NCBI RefSeq assembly: GCF_002117125.1
Contig: NZ_CP019344.1
Location: forward strand, 496,001-560,000
Direction of reading: 5' to 3'
DNA from: Nonlabens spongiae
GTDB taxonomy: Bacteria > Bacteroidota > Bacteroidia > Flavobacteriales > Flavobacteriaceae
Length of the DNA stretch: 64,000 nucleotides
The stretch's first letter is position 1. Each line of letters opens with the position of its first letter. Shown here one piece after another: positions 18,256 through 25,003 of the stretch. The notes under the pieces are model-generated. The model saw nothing but the letters and a program-made list of their open reading frames with translations, was not told the origin of the DNA and did no database searches. Position numbers and translations under genes: made by a program.

Positions 18256-19155
18256 TCAAGGTTTTTTGAATTGATCGGCTTTGTTCTGGGCGTATTTGTA
18301 GCCCTGTTTCCACCAGCTTTTCATGAGTTTTTTATCAAATATCAGCGAGTTCTCCGTAAGTTTTGAGGGCGTATAATACAGGTTGAGCGTGACATCACCA
18401 CGGCTCACGGCAGCCAGTTTGCCTAAGGCGATATCGTTCTTCTCGGTTTGGTCTTTTGAGAAGCTCAGCAGACTCAACAGCAAAGAAAACGGATTCTTAC
18501 CCAGCACCTGCCGGCGGTCCATTTTTTCATCGTCCAGTACGATCGCGTCCACGTGTTTGGCACCGCGCCTTATGGCTTCGCGTATGGGAATCAAACAACC
18601 AAAACCACCATCGGCGTACTCATAACCATTTTTCTCTGCGAGACTCATAAAGGGTACAAAATTGCACGAGATCCAGATCCAGTCGAGAAACTCATCGTAA
18701 TCAAAATCCTTGATGGATTTATACTCCACTTTGTTCAGGGAAAGATTGGAAACCGTGACCACCAGATCGGCTACGGTGTTTTTGATCTCCAAGAACTCGC
18801 TGTAGGAAATACTTTTGCTGATGGTTTTCCTCAGATTTTTGCTTTCGCCAAAGGTGCGTTTGTTTTTCATGAACTGCCACAAGCAGGTCAGGTAATTAAT
18901 GGTCACGTACTCACGATTATCCTTTTTCTTGATCACAAAAGGATCTACGCTAAACACCGTACGTTGCTTTACCGAGGTGTAGATTTTATAGATTTTATTT
19001 AAATCACCCAGTGCCAGGTGCGGTAACAACAAACTACCGGTAGATGTACCCAGAAACAGATCGTATTTCTCGCCCTGTTTGTTCATAAGGTAATGTGCCA
19101 CGCCACCCGCATAAGCGCCTTTACTACCACCACCAGAAATGACTAATGCTCGCAT
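18256..19155 (-). CDS. patatin-like phospholipase
   Basis: A 299-aa protein with the patatin active site: the oxyanion loop SGGGSKGAYAGGVA at the N-terminus, the nucleophile elbow GTSTGS near residue 38 and the Asp of the catalytic dyad in YADGGFGCLIP. The family are serine/aspartate lipid acyl hydrolases. No signal peptide, so probably cytoplasmic or membrane-associated. Length is normal for small bacterial patatins. It follows the META-domain lipoprotein gene by 24 bp on the same strand, so the two may be cotranscribed. Confidence 0.9.
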   Translation of the reverse strand: MRALVISGGGSKGAYAGGVAHYLMNKQGEKYDLFLGTSTGSLLLPHLALGDLNKIYKIYTSVKQRTVFSVDPFVIKKKDNREYVTINYLTCLWQFMKNKRTFGESKNLRKTISKSISYSEFLEIKNTVADLVVTVSNLSLNKVEYKSIKDFDYDEFLDWIWISCNFVPFMSLAEKNGYEYADGGFGCLIPIREAIRRGAKHVDAIVLDDEKMDRRQVLGKNPFSLLLSLLSFSKDQTEKNDIALGKLAAVSRGDVTLNLYYTPSKLTENSLIFDKKLMKSWWKQGYKYAQNKADQFKKP

Positions 19156-19179
19156 GGGGCTAATTTACGGTAAAGTGAT

Positions 19180-19638
19180 TTAGTCCTTTGTGAACGTCAA
19201 TTTGAGTTGATCATTTTTCATGGTCAAACTATTCTCCCTAAAAATGAAAGGTTGATCGTTTAATAAATCAAAGAATTGGTTTTCCCATTTGTTACCGTCT
19301 TCGCAGCCTATTTCAGTTGCCATGGGTGGCTCGGAAAATTTAATTTGGGAATCACTGATTGTAAAAGGGGCCGTAAAATTATTGCAACCGCTGTGACCGC
19401 TGGCGATGTTACTGGTGGTATCAAAAGTTAGATAGGGTTGTGTTGCCTCAAAACCATAATATTCGCTCAAATTAAAAACAGTATCGTTCACGGTTTTGAG
19501 TTTGAAGATTCCAGACAGGTAATGTTGTTTTATGACTTCAACTTTTTCTGGACGGTTGATTTCAAAGGATGGTTCTTCTTTTTTCTGGTTGCAGGAGAGG
19601 AAAATAAGCATTGATATCAGGAGCAGGGAAAGTTTCAT
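19180..19638 (-). CDS. META-domain (HslJ-like) lipoprotein
   Basis: A 152-aa lipoprotein with a short signal ending IFLSC. The body fits the META domain: YLTFDTTSNIASGHSGCNNF is the conserved strand-turn with Gly-x-x-Gly-Cys-Asn, and the C-terminal half has the paired strands ending LKLTFTKD. META proteins in E. coli (HslJ) are linked to envelope stress; the role here is unknown. Upstream on this strand lies a copy of the 16-bp palindrome and then the divergent restriction gene. Confidence 0.8.
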   Translation of the reverse strand: MKLSLLLISMLIFLSCNQKKEEPSFEINRPEKVEVIKQHYLSGIFKLKTVNDTVFNLSEYYGFEATQPYLTFDTTSNIASGHSGCNNFTAPFTISDSQIKFSEPPMATEIGCEDGNKWENQFFDLLNDQPFIFRENSLTMKNDQLKLTFTKD

Positions 19639-19684
19639 AAATTATCTTTTGACTGATATTAATTGAAATATAATTATTCTGTTA

Positions 19685-19700
19685 CGCTTTCGCGAAAGCG
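19685..19700. repeat. intergenic copy of the palindrome CGCTTTCGCGAAAGCG
   Basis: A perfect 16-bp palindrome between the divergent META lipoprotein and restriction genes, extended by AC on the left and GT on the right to 20 bp of perfect symmetry. Confidence 0.95.
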
Positions 19701-19773
19701 TAAATAAAACCATTATTAATTTTCCCACAAATTCTTATAACTTAGCGGGAATTATTTTTTACTGAGCCGCTAA

Positions 19774-21130
19774 ATGACCGTCAACCAATACATCGACAAA
19801 CTTAATGAGCGTTATTCCCAAGGTGTTGCTACCGAGCATAGTTACCGTGGCGACCTGCAAACTTTACTGGAAACGTTTATTCCCGATTATGCGATTACAA
19901 ACGAGCCTAAACGATCCAATGTAGGTGCGCCAGATTATATTGTACAGCAAGGGGACATAGCACGTGGTTATATCGAGGTAAAGGATATCGATAAAAACCT
20001 GAATGACAAATCTTATAAAGAACAGTTCACGCGATATAAGAACGGCTTGCCCAACCTGATCATAACCAATTATCACGAGTTCCGTTTGTATCAAGATGCT
20101 GAGCTGGTCAAAACGGTGCATGTCGCGCATCTCAATGATCAGGGTGTTTTTGTGCCAAATACAGCTGCTTTTGGCGAGTTTGAAGCACTGATCAAGGATT
20201 TCCCGCAGCACATAGCGCAAACCATATGCAGCCCGCGACAGCTATCCAAGCTTATGGCCGCCAAAACGCTTTTGCTCAAGGAGTCTTTTGCGCGATCACT
20301 TAAGGAAGACATCGCAGATGATCTTAATCCAGATACAGAGTTGCAGGGACAGTTCAACTCTTTTAAGGATTTATTGATTAAGGACATCACGCCAGAGCAG
20401 TTTGCCGATCTTTACGCACAGACCATTGCTTACGGTATGTTTGCCGCGCGCAGTAAGGATCCTACGCTGGAAAGCTTTGACCGTCGTGAGGCGGCCGAGC
20501 TGATCCCTAAAACCAATCCTTTTTTACGCAAACTTTTCCATTACATTGCCGGATACGATCTGGACCCGCGTATCTCGTGGATCATTGATGGACTGGCAGA
20601 GGTTTTTCGCGCGACTGATGTGGACGGCATCCTGCACAATTTTGGTAAGGCGACGCGCATGGAAGATCCCATCATCCATTTTTATGAGGATTTCCTGAAA
20701 GAATACAATCCCGGCCTGCGCGTGGAGCGTGGCGTCTGGTACACGCCACAGCCCGTGGTACAATTTATCGTGCGCGCGGTAGATGATGTCCTGAAAAATG
20801 AATTTGGCATCGCGGCCGGTCTCGCAGATGACAGTAAAATCGATATTACCGTAGATACTGATATACAGGATAAACGTACGCTTTCGCGAAAGCGGAAACA
20901 TACAAAAAAGGTGCATCGCGTGCAGATACTCGATCCTGCCACGGGAACCGGTACTTTTTTGAGCGAGGTGGTGCGTAAGATCAGGGAACGATTTGATGGC
21001 CTGGAAGGTATGTGGTCATCTTATGTGGATAACCATTTGATCCCACGTCTCAACGGTTTTGAGCTGCTTATGGCGAGTTATGCCATGGCGCACTTGAAAC
21101 TGGACCTTCTTTTACAAGAAACTGGTTATA
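19774..21130 (+). pseudogene. R-M block 1: nuclease and first half of the methylase
   Basis: An intact frame opens with a PD-(D/E)XK nuclease: APDYIVQQGD around residue 54 and YIEVKD around 68. A helical connector follows, then GVWYTPQPVVQFIVRAVDD, and methylase motif I as ILDPATGTGTFLSEVV near residue 386. It stops shortly after LDLLLQETGY, where the first repeats begin; the frame as written then runs into repeat-derived residues and ends at 21255. A palindrome copy (20879-20894, T-L-S-R-K-R) lies in the charged loop just before motif I. A truncated product could keep the nuclease but would lack the catalytic NPPY. Confidence 0.85.
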
Positions 21131-21217
21131 GCCCCATCCCTAACCCTTCCCAGAGGGAAGGGGAAACTATGGGATTAGATCGATCATCTAAAAATTCCCC
21201 CTGGGGGGCTAGGGGGC
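21131..21217. repeat. two G/C-rich palindromic elements at the first frame break
   Basis: The first element (about 21131-21166) pairs CCCTAACCCTTCCC with GGGAAGGGG. The second (21195-21217) is a 23-bp unit, TTCCCCCTGG...CTAGGGGGC. The bases between, with a GATCGATC, match nothing else seen here. After them the true reading resumes as N-Q-R-F-N-I-Y-L-T-N in another frame. Confidence 0.85.
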
Positions 21218-21218
21218 A

Positions 21219-21880
21219 AACCAGCGTTTCAATATTTACCTCACCAATTCCCTAGAACCCGGCTTTAAGGAAGTGCCCAACCTGTTCATGAACCAATGGC
21301 TCACGACCGAGAGCCAAGAAGCCAGCCGCATCAAGACCGAGACGCCCGTGATGGTCGTGCTGGGTAACCCGCCCTACAGCGGGATAATTGCTAATAATGG
21401 CAAGTACATCATGGACCTGATGGAGGCCTATAAAAAAGAACCTGGTGGTAAAATAAAATTGCAGGAGCGCAAACATTGGCTCAATGATGATTACGTGAAG
21501 TTTTTGCGACTGGCGCAACATCTGGTCGCTAAAAACAAAGAAGGCGTAGTCGCCTATATTAATCCGCATGGGTTTTTGGACAACCCCACCTTTCGCGGTA
21601 TGCGCTGGCATCTGCTTAAGACCTTTGACAAGATCTACACCATAGACCTGCACGGCAATGCCAAAAAGAAGGAAACCGCACCTGACGGCAGCAAGGACGA
21701 TAACGTTTTTGACATACAGCAGGGCGTGAGCATCAACATCTTTGTAAAAACAAATTCAAAAACAAAAACAAAAGATGATCTCGCCGAGGTTTTCCATTAT
21801 GATTTGTACGGTCGTAGAAAGGATAAATACAAGTTTTTGGAAGAAACTTCTATCTTAGATATGATAGCAGCCACGGAAAA
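21219..21880 (+). pseudogene. R-M block 2: methylase catalytic half
   Basis: Reading from NQRFNIYLTNSLEPGF, this block carries the catalytic motif IV as VMVVLGNPPYSG, typical of N6-adenine methylases, and continues through YVKFLRLAQHLV, VVAYINPHGFLDNPTFRGMR and NVFDIQQGVSINIFVK, all familiar from the Eco57I/type ISP group. The first internal ATG is at 21285; no ATG is near the block start, so an independent product would begin late, at or after P-N-L-F-M. It ends at A-A-T-E-N where the second frame break occurs. Confidence 0.83.
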
Positions 21881-21903
21881 TTCCCCCTTGGGGGGCAGGG
21901 GGC
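21881..21903. repeat. 23-bp G/C-rich element at the second frame break
   Basis: TTCCCCCTTGG...CAGGGGGC, 23 bp, differing slightly from the unit at 21195. Its length is 2 modulo 3, which is the frame change observed. Removing exactly these 23 bp restores a continuous reading. Confidence 0.88.
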
Positions 21904-22687
21904 TGATATTGCTTTCGCGAAAGTACCCAACGTCGCACCCGATTATTTTATGGTGCCGAAGGATTTTGAGTTGATGGAGAGGTATAATGGTAACTTGAGT
22001 ATTGAGAAAATATTTCATCTTTCTGGCGCTGGTATTGTAACAGCACATGATGAATTTGTTATCGATTTCAGCAAACAAGTTTTAGAGATGAAATTCCAGA
22101 GATTCGCAAATTCTTTAAGAGATACTGAAAGTTTACATCGAGATTTCAAAGTTGCTAAGAAAAAAGGTTGGGATATTTTAGAGGGATACGATAATCTTCA
22201 GAACAACGTAGACTTTGGTAAATACATATATAACATTGATTATCGACCTTTTGATACTCGTGAAATATTCTACGAGGACAAATTAGTATGGAGGACAGTT
22301 AGACAGGTATTTGACAATATAAATGGTAAAGAGAATTATTCTCTAGTCTTACCTAAACAGAATAAAAAGGACTGGGGCGTTTTTATATCAAAGTTCTGTA
22401 CAGCTCATAAACTAGTTAGCGCTTATGACATTAATTATAATCATCCACTATATCGATATGAGTCCAATGATCGCATCCCAAACTTAAATCGTAAAATGAT
22501 CCAGCAGTTTGCGTCTGGGTTGAGTTTGACCTTTTTACCAGATCATGATCTGGAGCGATTGCGAGAAGCGGTGGAGTTGCGAGAGCAAGGTCAAGATGTG
22601 TATAGTGGGTGGAAGCTGCCGGAGACTGTTGAAGATATAGAGCAATTGTTTGAAAGGAGAGAGAAAGCTCAAAAGGGGGATGATATT
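21904..22687 (+). pseudogene. R-M block 3: target-recognition region
   Basis: This block reads D-I-A-F-A-K-V-P-N-V then APDYFMVPKDFELMERY and continues with IDYRPFDTREIFYEDKLVW, a segment well conserved in type ISP target-recognition regions, and PNLNRKMIQQFASGLSL. The A-F-A-K at its start is the 16-bp palindrome family (21911-21924). In the present sequence the frame runs on without a stop into the DUF559 cassette, making a translational fusion. Confidence 0.83.
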
Positions 22688-23133
22688 GCCCCCCTAATCC
22701 CCCAAGGGGAACTATTGAGAGGTCAAAAAGCAAAGTGGAAGACTGCAGATCCCAGGATTTATGAAGTCATGAAGGAGCGCGCTAAGGAATTGCGCAAAAA
22801 CATGACGGCTACTGAGAAGGTATTTTGGCAGGAGATCAGAGCAAACAAACTAGGAGTGAAGTTCAACAGGCAACACGTCGCCGCTGGATTCATTCTTGAT
22901 TTCTTTGATCCAGAAATAGGACTGGCAGTAGAAATAGATGGCGGCTATCACGAAAATCAAAAAGAGCAAGATCAGCTGCGCACGGAAGAATTGAATGCAC
23001 AAGGCATACAAGTCATTCGATTTAGTAACACTCAGGTTACAAAGAATCTTTTGGTTTGTATAAGAGAATTGCAAGATTCTATTGATAAAATTCAATCAAA
23101 TACTAAGGATTCCCCCTTGGGGGCTAGGGGGCG
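22688..23133. mobile_element. DUF559 cassette bounded by inverted 23-24 bp elements
   Basis: The left end is GCCCCCCTAATCCCCC...GGGGAA (22688-22711) and the right end TTCCCCCTTGG...CTAGGGGGC (23110-23132). The right end is the reverse complement of the left apart from small differences, so the pair are terminal inverted repeats. They enclose an endonuclease gene. A 446-bp excision puts blocks 3 and 4 of the R-M gene back in one frame. No clear target-site duplication is seen, and the exact borders are uncertain by a base or two. Confidence 0.72.
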
Positions 23134-23155
23134 ACAGGAGCATTCACTCCATTAG
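22769..23155 (+). CDS. DUF559 (Vsr-like PD-(D/E)XK) endonuclease-domain protein
   Basis: The domain is complete: a helical lead (KELRKNMTATEKVFWQEIRA), FNRQHVAAGFILDFFDPEIG with the first Asp, LAVEIDGGYH with the E-x-D pair, and the closing strand GIQVIRFSNTQV. DUF559 belongs to the Vsr-like branch of restriction-endonuclease folds. From the ATG at 22769 it is 128 aa, but the frame is also open from block 3 upstream, so it may be made as a fusion. The last residues before the stop come from the right inverted repeat. Its role in mobility is inferred; DUF559 proteins are poorly characterised. Confidence 0.75.
   Translation: MKERAKELRKNMTATEKVFWQEIRANKLGVKFNRQHVAAGFILDFFDPEIGLAVEIDGGYHENQKEQDQLRTEELNAQGIQVIRFSNTQVTKNLLVCIRELQDSIDKIQSNTKDSPLGARGRQEHSLH
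23110..23132. repeat. 23-bp G/C-rich element, right end of the DUF559 cassette
   Basis: Same length and orientation as the solo units at 21195 and 21881, which suggests the solo units are single cassette ends or a non-autonomous form. Confidence 0.88.
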
Positions 23156-23272
23156 ATGTATTGGATTATATCTACGCGGTGTTGCACAGTCCGTCTTACC
23201 GCGAGAAGTACAAAGAATTTTTAAAGACAGATTTTCCACGCGTGCCGTGGCCGGCCTCGCTTGCCTCTGTGG

Positions 23273-23328
23273 CCTCACCCCAGCCGGAGCATTCCTCTCG
23301 CTCCAGCTCGTCGGATGCTGGGGAGAGG
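23273..23328. repeat. in-frame hairpin repeat
   Basis: Arms CCTCACCCCAGC and GCTGGGGAGAGG pair with one mismatch. It adds Ser/Pro/Glu-rich residues between D-F-P-R-V-P and F-W-K-L-V-E without breaking the frame. Confidence 0.7.
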
Positions 23329-23490
23329 GAGCAAGTCCAGTCGGTGTTTTGGAAGTTGGTGGAGTTGGGTGGCGAGCTGCGTCAATTTCATTTGATGAAA
23401 CACGAGGACAGCGATAAAGTCAGCGTGACTTATCCAGCTGCAGGCGATAACGTGATCCGCAATAAAATGACGAAGACGAGCCCGGGATGG

Positions 23491-23533
23491 AGCCCCCTTT
23501 CTCCTGCGGAGATTTCCCCAAAGGGGAAAGAGG
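23491..23533. repeat. in-frame hairpin repeat
   Basis: Contains the odd palindrome TTCCCCAAAGGGGAA (23514-23528) next to CTCC-TGC-GGAG. Related in composition to the C-run/G-run elements but distinct in sequence. Confidence 0.65.
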
Positions 23534-23580
23534 ATCTGAAGTTGGACACGAACTCGAAAAACGAAGATGTCAGTACCAGC

Positions 23581-23604
23581 CGGTCCCTGAGCGGAGTCGA
23601 AGGG
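23581..23604. repeat. 24-bp repeat family D
   Basis: CGGTCCCTGAGCGG...CGAAGGG, 24 bp (8 codons), read as S-R-S-L-S-G-V-E-G. The same 24-bp unit, one base different, occurs at 61554-61577; shorter relatives are at 33661 and 61869. Confidence 0.85.
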
Positions 23605-23857
23605 CATGGCGAAGTGTATCGAGAACGATTAGGCCGCGTAATGATCAATGAAACCCAGTATTTTGACAACGTCCCAAAGTCGGCATGGGAATTTTACATA
23701 GGCGGTTATCAGCCCGCTCAAAAATGGCTTAAGGATCGCAAAGACCGCGAGCTTAAAATGGAAGATATTCAACACTACCGGAAGATCATCAAAGCGCTGG
23801 TGGAAACAGAGCGGTTGATGGGGGAGGTTGATGGGGTTTTAAAATTAGATTAACCAG

Positions 23858-24901
23858 ATGAACTTAAACTACAATCCCGATTCTTTTCAAAAAGGCAAAC
23901 AATTTGAAGATTTTGTCGAAAACGTTCTGTTTCCTGACTCAGAATATTCAATTGAGCATAAAACGAGTGAGTTCAAACAGAACCGCGTCAGGTATGTGGG
24001 CGATGCGCAATTGCCTGATTTTAGATTCAAAAGCAAGGTTACCGGTCAAGAGTTTCATGTAGAGGCGAAATTCAGTTCCAGCAGTTGGCAGGGCGAATAC
24101 ACCATCGCAAGCGAGAATCAGGTCAAAATATTCAGCAGGATTGATATTGACAAAACTCCAATTTTTGTAGCGTTGGGCTATGGTGGACAGGCACATGAAC
24201 CTGATTTTGTAAGCTTGATACCCTTTGAAAAATACCCAGATGGAAAAATTCCTGAAACTGAGGTCATGGAATATCGGGTTGAGAAGTCAACGGTAGCATC
24301 ATCAGAAATACATGATCGAATTCAATCTTTACAAGTTATCGGTGAGGTAGAAATAGCTCTCGAGAATTCAACATCTACAGAGCCAATTGATCAAGATTCA
24401 AAAACAAAGTCATCTCAAGTCGAAGAAACTAAAGCACCAAAATCAAGCAAACGCAATGTTGTAGTCGGTGTTTTGGCGGCGCTAATAGTTATTGTATTTG
24501 CAATTTTCATGTTCAATAGTGATTCTGTTTCTGATGAAGAATTGCTTAAAGAACGTATTGAGAATTATTACAAGATTCTTGATGCCAACAAAGTCCATGA
24601 GATCCACAACTACGTTTCAGAGGATCTGCATACTTGGTACAGCTACGATGATCCTGATTTTGAAACCGTAATCAGCGATATCCAGCGCTACCGTGAGAAA
24701 TATCCTTTTACCATTTCAGAAATTGATTGGTCTCAATTCAAGCTTACAGAATTAGAAAACGGGCATTTTAAAGCAGAATATCCACTAGAGTATAAGATCA
24801 AATCAAAGATGAAAAGTCCTTATAAGCTGTACAATTTAGAGATTACGACGATTTGGGATGAGGATATGAAGCTGGTAAGTGCGGTGGAGGTGAGGAGGTG
24901 A
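23858..24901 (+). CDS. membrane-anchored PD-(D/E)XK nuclease-like protein
   Basis: A 347-aa protein of three parts. Residues 1-130 resemble a restriction-endonuclease fold: KGKQFEDFVENVLF, then LPDFRFKSK (Asp near 52) and FHVEAKFSS (Glu-x-Lys near 69-71). A charged linker leads to one membrane helix (NVVVGVLAALIVIVFAIFMF, about 199-218). The C-terminal 125 residues start ELLKERIENYYKILDANKV and end in paired strands (LYNLEITTIWD), which looks like an NTF2-like domain. With the nuclease inside the cell, the C-terminal domain would be in the periplasm. It begins 4 bp after the R-M gene. The combination is not one I recognise. Confidence 0.6.
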   Translation: MNLNYNPDSFQKGKQFEDFVENVLFPDSEYSIEHKTSEFKQNRVRYVGDAQLPDFRFKSKVTGQEFHVEAKFSSSSWQGEYTIASENQVKIFSRIDIDKTPIFVALGYGGQAHEPDFVSLIPFEKYPDGKIPETEVMEYRVEKSTVASSEIHDRIQSLQVIGEVEIALENSTSTEPIDQDSKTKSSQVEETKAPKSSKRNVVVGVLAALIVIVFAIFMFNSDSVSDEELLKERIENYYKILDANKVHEIHNYVSEDLHTWYSYDDPDFETVISDIQRYREKYPFTISEIDWSQFKLTELENGHFKAEYPLEYKIKSKMKSPYKLYNLEITTIWDEDMKLVSAVEVRR

Positions 24902-25003
24902 ACCTAATATACGCTGTAAGTAAAGAATAATGTGCGGAAGGAATAAAATTTTGATGAGTGATACTATAAATTTTTGAATCATAGATTAATAATACGAAAC
25001 GAC

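Follow-up and report, generated by a model that had tools for sequence, protein, structure and literature searches.

We asked whether a DUF559 nuclease gene lying within a broken restriction-modification (R-M) gene of Nonlabens spongiae, between two short inverted palindromes, is a mobile element of its own or merely a nuclease that happens to lie beside repeats. An original prediction, made from the letters of this locus, had taken the gene for the enzyme of a small mobile element and the palindromes for its ends. We followed it up in the window, i.e., the whole stretch of 64,000 nucleotides in which the locus lies, and in genomes from the genus outward to other phyla. The results partly support that interpretation, and we judge it probable that the DUF559 gene and the BoxC/PIT/TM_ECO-type inverted units around it together form one of a class of tiny mobile elements.

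A DUF559 element inserted in a restriction-modification gene

The features of the locus, in window coordinates, are as follows.

19774..23853, + strand: host gene, a Type ISP/IIG-like R-M gene in four open pieces split by three insertions
21133..21217, + strand: putative two-unit derivative without a gene, frame-shifting (units at 21133-21168 and about 21193-21217)
21878..21903, - strand: putative single-unit derivative, frame-shifting (repeat search, unit pattern and alignment to a relative)
22688..23132, + strand: DUF559 element of 445 bp, inserted in the R-M gene (repeats, PF04480 match and alignment to an intact relative)
22688..22713, + strand: left palindromic unit with an outward-facing C-rich tail (repeat search; missed by the unit model R1 at E<=0.05)
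22739..23104, + strand: nuclease frame of DUF559 (PF04480), continuing the frame of the R-M piece upstream (domain matched at 22769-23074)
23108..23132 (start approximate), - strand: right palindromic unit, inverted (repeat search; missed by R1 at E<=0.05)

The left unit reads GCCCCCCTAATCCCCCAAGGGGAACT and the right unit GATTCCCCCTTGGGGGCTAGGGGGC. In a repeat search of the window, positions 22691-22709 paired with 23113-23131 at 84% complementarity, and the local inverted-repeat score of the element was 14.0, whereas 20 shuffles averaged 8.1 and did not exceed 10.0. The open frame 21950-23155 has Pfam matches to PF04480 (E=2.6e-28) and to the beginning of Type_ISP_C, whose remainder lies in the next open frame. 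Between the arms, open frames and Pfam searches revealed DUF559 only and no known transposase. Together with a relative that lacks the insert (see below), these data confirm that inverted units border a DUF559 domain within the R-M gene. Since 445 bp is not a multiple of three, the element shifts the frame of its host.

The unit pattern of the window occurs four times in the genome, each time within the R-M gene. Model R1 matches at 21133-21168 (E=5.9e-5) but detects no arm of the DUF559 element at E<=0.05; the window arms are a short-stem variant of the BoxC-type unit, which the model misses. An Rfam scan of positions 19000-25000 gave a single match, at E=0.32 and far under its gathering score.

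A search with the R-M piece matched 12 of 395 genomes of the order, of which only G275 was close. Its gene (locus L116) is intact, with an open frame of 1080 aa and 47% identity over the part searched. The alignment to it breaks at about 21133-21217, at about 21874-21903 and at the DUF559 block. Because the reading frame changes at each of these breaks, the R-M gene was broken by three insertions and not by the DUF559 block alone. The original prediction had the family sequence restored by removal of about 446 bp. The right join, G-A-F-T-P-L-D-V, bears this out; the stretch of about 22550-22687, just before the block, is missing from the G275 relative too, and the left border therefore rests on the repeat and not on an empty site. 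As for R-M relatives free of DUF559, G275 is one, while the Type ISP genes of G549 and G599 carry DUF559 at the same position, although with arms that differ from those of the window and at separate places on the DUF559 tree.

The R-M gene also appears as a sink for repeats, with two in-frame repeat stretches (about 23236-23345 and about 23480-23600) besides the three frame-shifting insertions; both resemble other kinds of repeat and are missing in the G275 relative. A different palindrome, around CTTTCGCGAAAGCG, lies at 19683-19704 and 20877-20898, and leuS and metH genes of the genus hold stretches that resemble its translation (S-R-F-R-E-S-G, A-F-A-K-A), so it is perhaps another in-frame repeat family.

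Inverted flanks accompany DUF559 genes in eight phyla

The genome of N. spongiae has eight PF04480 matches. Two are partial and lie in and behind a Vsr-like gene. The six full copies, whose arms are all different, sit in leuS (one), hisH (one), the R-M gene of the window (one) and intergenic regions (three). At the Vsr-like endonuclease gene (L007, about 2489860-2490212 of contig C1), a second copy of the 3' 208 bp lies 223 bp downstream; the two copies are 87% alike, and each is followed by a hairpin. Tandem DUF559 cassettes were seen in the same genome (L002/L003, C1 about 468300-469450) and in G005 (L042, L045 and L049); two of the G005 copies are not separated by any branch in the tree, suggesting a recent local duplication.

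DUF559 is present in 18 of 39 genomes of relatives, 23 of them from the genus, where copy number ranges from 0 to 9. For the 49 full-length places in these genomes, the left flank aligned with the inverted right flank at a mean score of 15.5, compared with 8.6 for shuffles and 9.4 for pairs across loci. A sample of the phylum contained the family in 126 of 296 genomes, and 89 places from it were added to the 49 to give 138 Bacteroidota loci. With two loci dropped for short flanks, the inverted score reached at least 16 in 63 of 136, versus 38 of 1,360 cross-locus pairs and 2 of 156 other open reading frames (ORFs) from these loci; inverted ends are thus often present at DUF559 genes elsewhere, as the original prediction required. 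At 59 of the 138 loci DUF559 is part of an uninterrupted frame exceeding 250 aa, and at 79 it lies outside a large host frame. Copies in large frames had priority when loci were collected, so this share is not a population estimate.

Beyond this phylum, a scan of species genomes yielded 80 DUF559 loci, of which 47 of the 75 with enough flank (five were dropped) scored at least 16; the cross-locus figure was high here (25 of 375 pairs) because the arms resemble each other across phyla. Of eight loci on plasmid-collection records, chosen from 42 matching records among 72,556, seven had inverted flanks, in Cyanobacteria, Alphaproteobacteria and Deinococcus. By the names given in the records, inverted arms occur in eight phyla (Bacteroidota, Pseudomonadota, Desulfobacterota, Nitrospirota, Planctomycetota, Chloroflexota, Cyanobacteriota and Deinococcota); they were not found at the single Leptospiraceae locus.

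The flanking unit is a hairpin with a covarying third strand

Almost all hairpins in the flanks of DUF559 genes are pyrimidine in the 5' arm and purine in the 3' arm (341, versus 9 with the reverse arrangement). Such YR hairpins were found within 250 bp on both sides of the gene at 102 of 219 DUF559 loci, on one side at 64 and on neither at 53 (7 of 226 loci were dropped for short flanks). Among control ORFs of the same loci, the corresponding numbers were 0, 8 and 126 of 134, and among ORFs of the window away from the DUF559 gene 0, 4 and 41 of 45. Occupied sides carry at least two units in 46 of 223 cases in Bacteroidota and in 21 of 53 in other phyla. The picture given in the original prediction departs from these data at the 53 loci that have no nearby hairpin and at the sides with several units. 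The ends had further been described as one 23-bp sequence, which does not hold; they form a structural class whose letters change with the lineage of the nuclease.

The consensus unit is near ACCTCACCCCNRCCCCTCTCCNNNGGAGAGGGGAGYTT. Unit alignment A5, comprising the 24 of 33 units with a single stem and loop length, contains only C-G and U-A pairs, its hairpins having been preselected for such pairing; alignments A3 and A4 were dropped since their stems were out of register. Where the nearest unit on each side had a clear tail, 50 of 63 loci were inverted. Nearest tails in Bacteroidota point outward more often than toward the gene (92 versus 48), and in other phyla the gene-facing orientation prevails (38 versus 6).

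The G-rich tail fits the stem as a third strand. In 221 pooled units, 416 of the 466 cells facing A had A or T and 1,370 of the 1,459 facing G had G, and the mean fit was 0.906, compared with 0.778 (standard deviation 0.005, maximum 0.789 of 200) for reshuffled tails. With the loop fixed at three bases, G was found opposite A in 24% and opposite G in 87% of cases, a contrast that is gone at two or four bases. Related units are not independent, so these figures are not to be read as a probability. Across the pooled units the third strand covaries with the stem, which is a requirement of an intrastrand triplex.

The more alike two DUF559 proteins are, the more alike are their arms (Mantel rho 0.27, reached in 0 of 300 permutations, 115 loci), and the trend persists among pairs below 70% identity (rho 0.26). 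Binned by identity, the 18 available pairs from the same genome had arms about as alike as pairs from different genomes. The arms thus appear to belong to the nuclease and not to the genome.

Units also occur where there is no room for a gene. We read eight such loci in G576, G149 and G472, most of them picked because two R1 matches faced each other. Seven consist of two units with tails outward, spanning about 130 to 240 bp with their tails; the eighth (L322) has three hairpins, the last two with tails outward. Lone units had been expected to be end-only derivatives, and one- and two-unit forms do exist; the best explanation of both is that they are gene-less derivatives of the DUF559 element. 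The suggestion that other DUF559 proteins begin with residues of the translated repeat was borne out as well.

Unit numbers across genomes

Model R1 finds 15 units in N. spongiae, and in the genus the number of units follows DUF559 copy number (rho 0.61, p=0.002), with one unit in an incomplete genome that lacks DUF559. Among 64 Bacteroidota genomes, hand-picked from the phylum sample to include DUF559-rich ones, units were present in 30 of 44 with DUF559 and in 4 of 20 without it (p=0.0004). Within the family of N. spongiae alone the association is weak (6 of 12 versus 4 of 17; Fisher p=0.24, rank test p=0.04). Genomes with units and without DUF559 include G013, with one unit, and G149, whose eight R1 units stand beside no DUF559 match at E<=1e-10; there, the nuclease may have been lost or another enzyme may be at work.

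In-frame insertion into host genes

By sequence clusters, DUF559 resides in frame in leuS (at two positions), metH, hsdR, hisD, recG, hemF, hsdM, hisF, hisH and Type ISP genes. The names of leuS and metH come from NCBIfam profiles and that of the R-M gene from Pfam, the remaining ones from our reading of the sequences. The insert of metH lies in the linker before the cobalamin domain, that of hisD at the C terminus.

Occupied and empty alleles were found for two of these hosts. In the genus, metH is filled in five genomes and empty in five, the other 13 of 23 having no clear metH match. For leuS, match coordinates indicate 4 filled genes of 59; the 21 that were aligned comprise these 4 and 17 empty ones from genus members, which run unbroken through a stretch like ENKVVSNDD-DCVYPLELNTMPG. 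No unit was seen at the site in empty alleles of leuS or metH, and the aligned inserts hold little besides the DUF559 domain and the arms. A target-site duplication was looked for in both genes and none was resolved, the flanks being too diverged. On the DUF559 tree, which has moderate branch supports, the copies from one leuS position are scattered and those of the three Type ISP genes do not group together; the same sites thus appear to have been entered repeatedly.

Both parts of the element are constrained. Median omega of the DUF559 domain was 0.09 in metH, 0.13 in hisD, 0.09 in leuS, 0.08 in recG and 0.11 in hemF, with dS near saturation and 6 of 32 pairs giving no dS; in all five host genes the nuclease is under purifying selection. 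In the metH arms of five species, 24 of 26 columns on the left and 22 of 24 on the right are identical, compared with 20% of third codon positions in the body, and the arms are thus held at the nucleotide level or homogenized. In the leuS gene of G018 (L032/L086), the inverted arms extend past the unit into GCCAAC/GTTGGC, so that the sequence beside the element is itself an inverted copy, which could hint at synthesis of a fold-back kind.

The E. coli repeat BoxC and its neighbor ycjD

The consensus unit has a published name. It is the repeat that goes by the names BoxC, PIT element and TM_ECO (Holder et al. 2015, PMC4666352), known in Escherichia coli since the 1990s with its function left open. 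According to the parts of that paper available to us, E. coli MG1655 has 23 listed TM_ECO, no association of the motif with transposons, phages or plasmids was found, and its loci are prone to rearrangement. The available text contains no word beginning with nuclease or DUF, nor ycjD, and no enzyme assignment was seen in it.

TM_ECO no. 9 (1351239-1351204; CCCTCGCCCCTCTGGGGAGAGGGTTAGGGTGAGGGG) adjoins ycjD (1351407-1351760), annotated as a DUF559 protein in strain K-12. It lies about 165 bp behind the gene with its tail outward, and R1, a model built from other units, recovers it (E=1.3e-4); no unit was seen within 330 bp on the other side of ycjD. The unit is present in 5,375 of 5,426 E. coli genomes at a median of 17 places per genome. 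In 60 spread genomes, from which two short records (113 and 232 kb) were left out, the median number of other unit places was 20 in the 37 genomes with ycjD and 4 in the 21 without it (p=1e-8). Both ycjD and unit count are bound to lineage, so this comparison reflects one or a few events and not 58. Two genomes without ycjD still have 18 and 20 unit places.

Inverted pairs in E. coli are mostly opposite to the tails-outward arrangement (4 of 5 in the table of PMC4666352), and the two dimers that we read were tail-in, unlike the pairs of Bacteroidota; a simple derivative model does not explain them. BoxC dimers were located at alx-sstT, ygfF-gcvP and fepB-entC. Neither candidate empty site in E. 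coli proved to be one. At alx-sstT, one or two shorter alleles are internal deletions between the units and a third strain has unrelated sequence; at ycjD, all five strains examined that lack the gene have a TetR regulator and efflux genes in the gap. In the fabI-sapF gap, ycjD and the efflux operon alternate (L304-L314), an alternation also found in the part of PMC12817139 that was available.

The enzyme

The AlphaFold2 model of the window DUF559 protein has a pLDDT of 92. Among solved structures, the best matches are the endonuclease-like protein 3hrl and the I-Bth0305I homing endonuclease (3r3p, catalytic domain), with Vsr a weaker match behind them. Family profile and predicted fold thus agree on a putative PD-(D/E)XK enzyme of the DUF559 family. 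YcjD was named a putative PD-(D/E)XK member whose profile detects Vsr in a 2005 paper (PMC1189080, seen in part), and the Pfam entry gives the function of DUF559 as unknown. Caulobacter VsrA, also a DUF559 protein, is needed for the SOS response of cells without cytosine methylase, as stated in the portion of PMC12907096 available to us, so at least one member of the family probably damages DNA in vivo. The same source explains VsrA as a repair enzyme.

Proposed mechanism and alternatives

From the cassette, its ends, the occupied and empty sites and the constraint on both parts, we regard the following course of recognition, cutting and copying as the most likely one. The element would consist of one DUF559 nuclease gene (PD-(D/E)XK fold, YcjD type) between inverted units, in each of which a short loop joins a pyrimidine arm to a purine arm, followed by a G-rich third strand that may fold back as an intrastrand triplex. 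The DUF559 protein would recognize the folded unit of its own lineage, as hairpin or triplex, and nick or cut the unit or the target, and host repair would copy the element to a new place. Ends without stop codons would let it settle in frame. The recurrence across bacteria and the position of TM_ECO no. 9 beside ycjD suggest a new kind of tiny mobile element. What counts against it are the hairpin-free loci, the short arms of the window copy and their non-dispersed pattern, the weak association in the family of N. spongiae, the units in genomes that lack DUF559 or ycjD, the one-sided unit at ycjD, the tail-in dimers of E. coli and the repair account of VsrA. For the more specific proposal, namely, that DUF559/YcjD proteins are the dedicated enzymes of BoxC-type intrastrand-triplex repeats, reading the folded triplex end and residing in frame in essential genes such as leuS, so that both form a separate, ancient mobile class parallel to REP-RAYT, we find the balance of evidence tilted slightly in its favor.

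Three other accounts were weighed. The nuclease could be an ordinary repair or restriction enzyme, with BoxC-type repeats that spread by other means, are recombinogenic and flank the gene by accident. The link of VsrA to cytosine methylation and SOS in the available part of PMC12907096 fits this account, as do the rearrangement-prone BoxC loci of PMC4666352 (likewise seen in part) and the genomes that bear units without DUF559. Against it, none of the 134 control ORFs lies between two units, the arms covary with the lineage of the nuclease and not with the genome, and the metH and leuS inserts consist of little more than domain and arms. We regard a passenger role as unlikely.

Slightly less probable still is that DUF559 is a homing parasite for which the palindromes are landing pads and not ends, and which targets sites in host genes or existing repeats and spreads by gene conversion. 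The closest characterized relative by sequence and fold, I-Bth0305I, is a homing endonuclease, the PADLOC homing-endonuclease model matches one of three copies tested, and the same positions in leuS, metH and Type ISP genes are used repeatedly. Against this, the arms of similar nucleases stay alike from locus to locus, the site is free of units in empty leuS and metH alleles, and more than half of the Bacteroidota loci (79 of 138) lie outside a large host frame even though such frames had priority. The view that the R-M enzyme normally includes DUF559, as its shared position in the Type ISP genes of G549 and G599 might suggest, is largely refuted by the intact G275 relative without it, the separate placement and different arms of the three copies, and the frame shift caused by the copy in the window.

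Relation to known systems and significance

The proposed element of DUF559 gene and paired units shares its architecture with BoxC/PIT/TM_ECO, whose sequence is that of the consensus unit and which also occurs in inverted pairs; the available part of PMC4666352 mentions no link between that repeat and mobile elements, whereas here the units flank DUF559. As in BoxC, we found the YR hairpin, the third strand (in pooled units) and dispersal in many copies; the window arms do not score as a unit. The REP/REPIN repeats and their RAYT (TnpAREP) are alike in having small palindromes, inverted pairs and one dedicated small nuclease gene between them. RAYT is an HUH single-strand transposase (PMC3733652, in the part available), whereas no HUH tyrosine transposase lies between the repeats studied here, the enzyme being of the PD-(D/E)XK type and the hairpins of a pyrimidine/purine triplex type. 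CGTC REPs and Rickettsia palindromic elements, described in the available part of Di Nocera et al. 2013 (PMC3733652), resemble the units in having intragenic copies and no dedicated transposase reported; CGTC/dRS3 repeats were rejected as partners of DUF559, as their ATTCC..GGAAT core lies near it at 1 of 226 loci. I-Bth0305I and Vsr-related homing endonucleases are alike in fold and profile, and the arms are the addition here. Inteins share in-frame residence in conserved genes and a patchy distribution, but NCBIfam profiles gave no match to a self-splicing domain in a filled LeuS or a filled MetH, one protein of each being covered.

The comparisons with REP-RAYT, CGTC REPs, transposases and inteins thus failed, and only the repeat had been named before. 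We found no link between DUF559 and BoxC in the literature on DUF559, ycjD, BoxC and REP/RAYT, which was covered mostly as titles and listings and mostly outside subscription papers. If the proposed reading is true, the BoxC repeat gains a candidate enzyme and DUF559 a candidate substrate, and bacteria would harbor a mobile element whose ends are recognized, maybe, by their triplex structure. It would also provide a route by which a nuclease domain can become a tolerated insert in essential proteins.
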